In this document: one piece after another, positions 24,414 through 26,306 of the stretch
Numbering within the stretch: the first letter of the stretch is position 1
Layout of the letters: each line of letters begins with the position of its first letter
Origin: Persephonella sp.
GTDB taxonomy: Bacteria; Aquificota; Aquificia; Aquificales; Hydrogenothermaceae
Direction of reading: 5' to 3'
DNA: 41,865 bases
NCBI RefSeq assembly: GCF_015487465.1
Contig: NZ_WFPS01000008.1
Span: 74,139-116,003, forward strand
Made by a program: the position numbers and the translations under genes
The notes under the pieces: generated by a model
The model's database searches: none
What the model was told of the DNA's origin: nothing
Seen by the model: only the letters and a program-made list of their open reading frames with translations

Positions 24414-26306
24414 TTAGTTTAGCTTTTTAGCAAGTTCCTCCTGTATCATCTGTGCAGCTTTTACAGGATCAGGTTCAACCATAAATCTGCCACCTAAGAT
24501 ATCCTCAAGGTCTCTTGTTAACAGTCTTGTTAGTGCCGGACCTCCAACAATAGGAGGAACAGGGTTTACATAAGTGTTTATCCCCATCGCAACAGCAAGA
24601 AGACCGTCTATATATGCATCATTGTTGTAATACTCTGGAGCTGCTGCAACAACAGGAAGCTGACTTGGGTCAACCCCAAGATATTCAGAAAGAGCAAGAA
24701 TAAGATGTATCATTCTCCCTGTATCAAGACATGATCCAAAATTTAAAACAGGGGGAATATCAAGGATTTTGCACACACCTTTAAGTCCTTCACCTGCAAA
24801 CTTCTCAACAGCTTCTTTATTTGTAAGTCCTTCAGCCTGAGCCAGAGAAGAAGCACACCCTGTTATTAGAACAAGAATGTCTCTCTTTAAAAGCTCTTTA
24901 ACAAACTCATAGGTAAAAGTTCCGTGTCCGTTTTTCATGGTAGTGCAGCTAACCAACCCGACTACACCTTTTATAGCTCCACTCTCTATCGCCTCAAGGA
25001 GAGGGTCTGGAGTTCCCCCTAATATGTTGAGAAGGCTTTCAACACCAAATCCGGCTATGTAAGGTGTTTTTTTGTCTGGTATGTGTATAGGGTATGTTTT
25101 TCTTCTGTTTTTGTAAGCCTCTATAGACTCAAGTATCAGTTTTTCTGCCTGTTTCTCAACAACCTCAGGATCGTATATAACAGACTGATCAACAGGAATG
25201 TCTCTCAATCTTACGACAGATGAAACAGGTATTAGTTTTGTGTGGAGTTTCACCTTCTGGACAAGGTCTCCAAGACCGGGAGCGGCACAGTTTTTGTCCA
25301 TTAAAAATGCATCAACAGCCCCTGTGGCTGCAACAAATTCCTGTGTAAGCCAGTTTCCTACCTGACCGTCAAGATATTTTGCTATTTCAGGTCTCTGGAG
25401 CATTTCCTGACCTGTGCACAGGCTTCCGTAAACCTTTATTCCTTTAGCCCCTGCCTCTTTTGCTTTTTTCTGGAATTTTTCCTCTTTTGCCATTTTTGCG
25501 ACTACAGACCCCATCCATGGGACATGTCCGTGAACAACTATGTTTACATAATCTTTATCAAGAACGCCTATGTCGGCGTACCCTTTTGTTATGTCTGGAG
25601 ATCCAAATATAATGTCTCTAATAATAGTTGTTGCTATGTTTGCTAAAAATCCAGCAGAAAGTCCGAGCCTTAATGCTGACAGTGAAAGATCCATAAAGTC
25701 TGTGTCTATGTTAGGCATAACCTTTGCCCCAGCCTCGTGACTTTCAAATATGTATCCTCCTGGGAGTATCCCCAAAGTTTCCCATTTTTTTACCCTGCTT
25801 TCAGGTGCAAGTTTTTTTACTATGTCCAGCGGCTCATTTATATCTTTCATAAACTCCTTTTCAAGATAATCTGCTATCCTGCCTATTATCTGTCTGTCTG
25901 TTCCCTCAGTGCTCAGCCCAAGCTTTTCAGCAAACCAGATCATCTTTTTTCTATCTTTTACAGTAAACGGTGATTTTCCATTAGCCACAGCTTTCAGGGT
26001 TTTTAATGTTGTTTTAAAGTCATGGGTGTATGCAGCTCCTCCTTGATTAACAAGCCTGAGAAGGTTTCTTGCCGCAAGACCGTCAGCATCTATTCCACAT
26101 TTCCCCTTTGGTGCTCTTCTTTTTATTCTGCAGGGTCCGTCAGGACACAGTGTGCAACATCTTCCCTGCTCACCAAAATAACAGATAGCTCCCTGCCTTT
26201 TTACCCTTTCAAAGAATGTGTGTTTATAGCCCATTGATCTTAAGAATGAGTGCATCTCTTTAACTGAGTCATGGGCTGTAACACAGTAATCACAATTATT
26301 TCCCAT
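24414..26306 (-). CDS. cooS: CooS-type carbon monoxide dehydrogenase, divergent
   Basis: The 630-residue protein has the full anaerobic Ni,Fe-CODH layout. D-cluster cysteines are C42 and C50 (CX7C), and B-cluster C51, C54, C59 and C70. The six C-cluster ligand positions are filled: H261 (VHGHVPWM), C297 (SLCTGQE), C340 (KNCAAPG), C454 (VSCTTMK), C484 (TGCASS) and C526 (GSCLDTGR). Two things are odd. The catalytic lysine of Carboxydothermus CODH-II (K563, in PEWMSEKA) aligns with an aspartate in PEYYNNDA, and the histidines H93/H96/H99/H102 align with Y93, D96, T99 and K102. An extra N-terminal CDYC motif (5-8) is present. No cooC, cooF or acetyl-CoA synthase gene is adjacent. It may be a CODH of a deep clade or an Fe-S enzyme with another reaction. 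A ribosome site GGGAGGG precedes the ATG. Confidence 0.88.
   Translation of the reverse strand: MGNNCDYCVTAHDSVKEMHSFLRSMGYKHTFFERVKRQGAICYFGEQGRCCTLCPDGPCRIKRRAPKGKCGIDADGLAARNLLRLVNQGGAAYTHDFKTTLKTLKAVANGKSPFTVKDRKKMIWFAEKLGLSTEGTDRQIIGRIADYLEKEFMKDINEPLDIVKKLAPESRVKKWETLGILPGGYIFESHEAGAKVMPNIDTDFMDLSLSALRLGLSAGFLANIATTIIRDIIFGSPDITKGYADIGVLDKDYVNIVVHGHVPWMGSVVAKMAKEEKFQKKAKEAGAKGIKVYGSLCTGQEMLQRPEIAKYLDGQVGNWLTQEFVAATGAVDAFLMDKNCAAPGLGDLVQKVKLHTKLIPVSSVVRLRDIPVDQSVIYDPEVVEKQAEKLILESIEAYKNRRKTYPIHIPDKKTPYIAGFGVESLLNILGGTPDPLLEAIESGAIKGVVGLVSCTTMKNGHGTFTYEFVKELLKRDILVLITGCASSLAQAEGLTNKEAVEKFAGEGLKGVCKILDIPPVLNFGSCLDTGRMIHLILALSEYLGVDPSQLPVVAAAPEYYNNDAYIDGLLAVAMGINTYVNPVPPIVGGPALTRLLTRDLEDILGGRFMVEPDPVKAAQMIQEELAKKLN

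Follow-up and report, generated by a model that had tools for sequence, protein, structure and literature searches.

The window, that is, the whole stretch of 41,865 nucleotides analyzed here, stems from a Persephonella-like genome of the Aquificales (1.83 Mb, 99.9% complete). On its minus strand lies a gene for a CooS-like protein, which a genome-wide profile search returned as the sole PF03063 gene of the host genome. The gene, the codons that matter for its chemistry and the elements upstream of it are as follows:

24414..26306 (-), CooS-like gene of the prismane/CODH superfamily, 630 amino acids, from the open reading frame and profile matches
24618..24620 (-), codon of D563, at the catalytic-lysine position
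24624..24626 (-), codon of N561, aligned with the iron ligand Glu556 of CooS-V; Glu in all aligned clade C/D sequences
25293..25295 (-), codon of K338, a family-specific Lys two residues before ligand C340 and, from sequence, a candidate stand-in lysine
26019..26021 (-), codon of D96, where the 76 aligned D-1, D-3 and E/F sequences always have His
26028..26030 (-), codon of Y93, at the His93 position; Tyr is usual here in clades C and D
26314..26320 (-), likely ribosome-binding site GGGAGGG upstream of the gene
26354..26372 (-), direct repeat TATGCA-N7-TATGCA between promoter and start codon
26428..26443 (-), sigma-54-type promoter TGGCATGTCTCTTGCT upstream of the gene, by sequence motif

The protein scores 668.7 bits against the NCBIfam model CO_DH_cata (TIGR01702), above the curated cut-off of 478, and 458.9 bits against Pfam Prismane. 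Its scores with the NCBIfam HCP models fall far below the cut-offs in both cases (37.6 versus 367 and 30.8 versus 360.8). An initial sequence-only reading had stated that the ligands of the D, B and C clusters can all be placed, and every one was located by alignment: C42, C50, C51, C54, C59 and C70 for the D and B clusters and the full set of six, H261, C297, C340, C454, C484 and C526, for the C cluster. The D cluster is predicted to be of type II. Of the residues that characterize TIGR01702, the histidine and five cysteines of the C cluster and the B/D cysteines are thus present, whereas the catalytic His93 and Lys563 are Y93 and D563. Judged by its alignments, the product is a CODH-fold protein with a complete ligand set. 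The extra N-terminal CxxC motif, pointed out earlier as a peculiarity, is indeed there with its two cysteines but is not odd, since N-terminal Cys motifs (in C-1, D-3, E-3 and F-2) are, like Tyr93, described traits of CODH groups (PMC6344411).

Residues were placed by ungapped alignment with solved CODHs and by an alignment of 103 CODH-like sequences, whose CODH groups were assigned by signature residues and not by reference accessions. Both alignments put Y, D, T, K and D at positions 93, 96, 99, 102 and 563, in agreement with the earlier placement of Y93, D96, T99 and K102 at the relay positions and of an aspartate at the K563 position. The argument then built on a lost four-histidine relay had to be given up, because H93Y is a published group trait and positions 99 and 102 vary even among solved, working CODHs. 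Clade D likewise has the Asn-Cys and Cys-N-G contexts once listed as further oddities (N339 before C340 and N-G following C454). What sets the protein apart becomes visible in the signature at 93/96/563, which reads H, H, K in clades E/F, Y, H, K in D-3 and D-1, N, H, K in D-2 and Y, I/V, Q in clade C. The combination Y, D, D occurs in the Aquificales family alone among the 103 aligned proteins. Positions 96 and 563 are both Asp in each of the 14 family members aligned, and the 76 D-1, D-3 and E/F sequences all have His and Lys there, which bears out the view that the ligands were kept while acid-base residues were replaced.

A column-by-column test found five columns that are invariant in the family yet depart from a strong D-1/D-3/E/F consensus: D96, D563, S236, G462 and an alignment insertion at Y405. 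K338 is a Lys only in the Aquificales family among the aligned CODHs. At the position of CODH-II D219, which we take to be the usual partner of Lys563, each of the 33 aligned E/F sequences has Asp, and the Persephonella protein has Ala. On the alignment evidence, the genuinely unusual positions are D96, D563 and the adjoining N561/N562. An alignment slip at 563 was rejected, the alignment being ungapped there in several comparisons. Chance, assembly error, drift and a pseudogene were likewise dismissed, as both aspartates are invariant in all aligned members from two bacterial families. No description of an Asp/Asp (96/563) CODH variant was found in the literature; solved structures of the single CODH-II mutants H96D, K563A and K563H were retrieved in a structure search (7ZXC, 7ZXJ and 7ZXX). 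The distinguishing trait of the family is the pairing of H96D with K563D, whereas Tyr93, the Asn-Cys context and the extra N-terminal cysteines were already known.

In an AF2 model of the Persephonella protein (25 sequences, pLDDT 87, pTM 0.89), residues 93-102 map within one predicted helix (74-108) and D563 starts another (562-573). The structure closest to the model is CooS-V (TM 0.93, rmsd 2.1), followed by true CODHs, and CooS-V also gives the best sequence match among solved relatives (488.7 bits). This D-1 protein of Carboxydothermus hydrogenoformans (PDB 7B7Q) has the CODH fold, about 41% identity and a Tyr at the His93 position and, like the Persephonella gene, lacks a C1-metabolism context. 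The two differ in the active site, as had been proposed: CooS-V carries Glu for Cys295 and retains H96 and K563, whereas the Persephonella protein retains C297 and has Asp for both H96 and K563. In CooS-V, Glu556 is an iron ligand (PMC9311411), a place taken by N561 in the Persephonella protein. Given the retained Cys and this Asn, the protein does not have to carry a hybrid cluster of the CooS-V kind. Together with C297, the type II D cluster (type III in D-1) separates it from the D-1/CooS-V type. Group D-3 (Inoue 2019; reported in Carboxydocella and Thermanaeromonas) is alike in having Tyr93, every C-cluster ligand, a D cluster of type II and an N-terminal Cys motif but keeps H96/K563 and has three cysteines in that motif instead of CxxC. 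Clade C shares Tyr93 and the lost catalytic Lys but has I/V96 and Q563 in place of the two aspartates.

Of the 136 Aquificota genomes searched, 17 encode an ortholog, and these fall into two bacterial families. The orthologs share 68-91% identity, and every cluster ligand, along with many residues of the pocket, is invariant among them. Some 85,000 species genomes were scanned with the exact peptide patterns PEYYNND and FGEQG[RI]CC, a search that misses motif variants, and within the 80 relatives retained PEYYNND was seen in Aquificales only. The best profile matches outside this order are of the D-3 type (L183-L197). As far as the exact-motif scan and the profile search reach, the family was found in, and appears confined to, the Aquificales. 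In a tree it branches on the clade C/D side (SH-aLRT 100) as a single, long-stemmed clade separate from clade C; its nearest sister is only tentatively placed (support 82) in this tree, which was sampled without group D-4. One scan of viral contigs returned no relative, and plasmids gave two distant matches only. In four CooS-negative Persephonella genomes (L297-L300; G013, G006, G007 and G001) yggS and nfeD directly abut, so that cooS and its promoter were either inserted at this junction or cleanly lost from it. Aquificaceae cooS genes are surrounded by unrelated genes. One ortholog (L025, G009:C61) is split into two overlapping frames by a frameshift or an assembly error.

The gene stands alone, with neighbours that are unrelated between genera and none that is conserved between families. 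No redox, ACS or maturation gene lies beside it, which confirms the earlier remark that adjacent maturation or electron-transfer genes are missing. A CooC-like gene was not found in nine family genomes either: these gave P-loop fragments only (best E values 1e-9 to 1e-6) and no full-length match, compared with E values of 1e-49 or better in genomes with ordinary CODHs. Each family genome holds one prismane-family gene and hence no HCP, a protein that is rare across Aquificota anyway.

The promoter distinguishes the family from other CODHs. Of 32 family loci, among them several copies of one genome, 28 have the pattern TGGCAY-N5-TTG[CA] upstream, compared with none of 167 other CODH loci. Two of the four exceptions (L009/L027) represent one ortholog with a TGGTAT variant, and the other two (L007 and L232) belong to G004, where the upstream sequence differs near a contig end. 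The host genome contains seven strict matches and none to a reversed control pattern. Its other sites precede, among others, sulfate-assimilation, flagellar and cell-envelope genes, as named from their translations, so that the promoter alone does not mean nitrogen control. CODH does not figure in a published study of sigma-54 regulons in Clostridiales. One sigma-54 activator (L256, G000:C30:15688-16674), which has a zinc ribbon at its N-terminus and a PilZ-like region, recognized by eye, in place of a receiver domain, is widespread in Aquificota and lies about 6 kb from the sigma-54 promoter of a likely surface-protein operon. It is present in seven of eight CooS-positive and none of six CooS-negative Persephonella genomes (Fisher p 0.005). 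As a specific cooS regulator it was discarded, being absent from the CooS-positive genera g19 and g20 and present in CooS-negative g17 genomes; the association is confounded by ancestry and only a lead. Two divergent sigma-54 promoters were also noted between likely sulfate-assimilation genes (L138/L139, G000:C47); a gene for a sigma-54 activator lies some 5 kb away.

A more specific hint comes from the Aquificaceae. The cooS promoter of genera g18 and g19 and of G100 is preceded, at a distance of some 40-85 bases, by a pair of ACAAWWTTGT-like palindromes spaced ten bases apart; in G082 they are four bases apart, and upstream of the G105 cooS no pair was found. A genome scan with the palindrome pattern picked out, in addition to cooS, the sigma-54 promoters of glnB-glnA in G082, G105 and G068. 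As the pattern was derived from cooS upstream regions, only the glnB matches are independent, and when each glnB upstream region was shuffled 300 times, no shuffled version gave an equally good match. The sharing of these palindromes by cooS and glnB-glnA suggests an NtrC-type activator in Aquificaceae. The glnB-type enhancer is absent upstream of the window cooS and of all Persephonella orthologs examined, so that nitrogen control in Persephonella is something we infer. The leaders of other Persephonella orthologs have ATGCA repeats similar to the direct repeat in the window. The sequence-only reading, made without regulatory evidence, had left the choice between a new reaction and slow CO chemistry; the sigma-54 promoter and the Aquificaceae glnB-glnA enhancer point away from CO. 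A sigma-54-like site also precedes a gene pair at L315 and L319 (G070 and G068), in which the gene for a two-domain P-II-like protein is followed by that of a nitrate-transporter-like membrane protein.

We tentatively favour a nitrogen-responsive, CODH-derived iron-sulfur reductase, perhaps of hydroxylamine, for which CO chemistry would no longer be the main job. As a homodimer, the protein would conduct electrons through its D and B clusters in the manner of CODH and deliver them to an active-site cluster, with or without Ni, built on the full CODH ligand set. With Lys563 and His96 changed to Asp and the Asp219 position lost, it would handle Ni-bound CO2 or CO poorly and would instead carry out a slow two-electron reduction of a small nitrogen compound, with hydroxylamine as the likeliest candidate. 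The protein would be made on demand from the sigma-54 promoter, probably under nitrogen limitation via an NtrC-type activator. This reading is preferred because the closest solved relative, CooS-V, is inactive in CO chemistry but a slow reductase of hydroxylamine (PMC9311411), because D96/D563 are fixed in the family and never seen in the D-1/D-3/E/F sequences, and because, among the CODH loci examined, the promoter marks family loci alone. The palindromes shared with glnB-glnA and a solo gene that has unrelated neighbours and no CooC or HCP match in its genomes speak for it as well. A precedent for a reductase of this kind in nitrogen metabolism is the hcp gene of Rhodobacter capsulatus, which lies in a nitrate-assimilation cluster and is needed for hydroxylamine assimilation (cited in PMC3701875). 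HCP, a hydroxylamine reductase, belongs to the same superfamily and resembles the proposed function, while its cluster ligands and sequence differ. Against a nitrogen reductase count, besides the enhancer missing from Persephonella cooS and the varied genes behind the other sigma-54 sites, two features of the active site: with all six C-cluster ligands kept a Ni,Fe cluster could still form, and the HCP-type Glu ligands are absent (C297 is kept and N561 takes the other place).

The same kept ligands, invariant throughout the family, are an argument for a working but slow Ni,Fe-CODH in which the C cluster is built and K338, placed so close to C340, or other residues take over the acid-base roles. 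This is unlikely, given the replacement of K563 and H96 in every member, the loss of the D219 equivalent, the missing CooC match and nearby redox or ACS genes, and a promoter absent from the 167 other CODH loci examined. There is a somewhat better, though still minor, chance of a stress protein against NO, peroxide or oxygen, resembling the role proposed for HCP/CooS-V and having no special tie to nitrogen assimilation. CooS-V is the nearest solved structure, P. marina is a microaerophile that also uses nitrate (PMC5441870), and proteobacterial NO-response genes including hcp are driven by sigma-54 via NorR (PMC1274295). The Aquificaceae enhancer common to cooS and glnB-glnA argues against it, as do palindromes unlike the NorR consensus GT-N7-AC (PMC1274295). 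A redox or gas sensor, or another non-catalytic protein, would suit a solo gene with replaced acid-base residues and has been suggested as a regulatory role for clade C and D CODHs (PMC13056359). It is improbable here, because the cluster ligands, together with many residues of the pocket, do not vary between orthologs and no conserved partner protein is encoded nearby.

Beyond the well-studied clades, most CODH-like genes are, to our knowledge, without an assigned function. For the nitrogen-responsive reductase, the conserved double acid-base change and the promoter/enhancer tie to nitrogen control in some relatives offer a concrete, testable function. CODH clusters can bind small nitrogen substrates such as cyanide or cyanate. 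It is conceivable, if rather doubtful, that the family represents a further re-tooling of the CODH scaffold besides HCP/CooS-V, namely a nitrogen-scavenging reductase (of hydroxylamine, cyanide or cyanate) under NtrC/sigma-54; if true, few changes would suffice to move CODH from carbon to nitrogen chemistry. The CodH of Persephonella marina, a member of the same gene family, has been called 'one of a kind', in an account whose accessible part describes neither active-site changes nor the promoter nor the wider spread in Aquificales (PMC5441870). Elsewhere in the window, a type II restriction-modification pair is encoded by a BsaWI-like endonuclease gene (18877-19407, plus strand) and a DNA N6/N4 methylase gene (17855-18817, minus strand).
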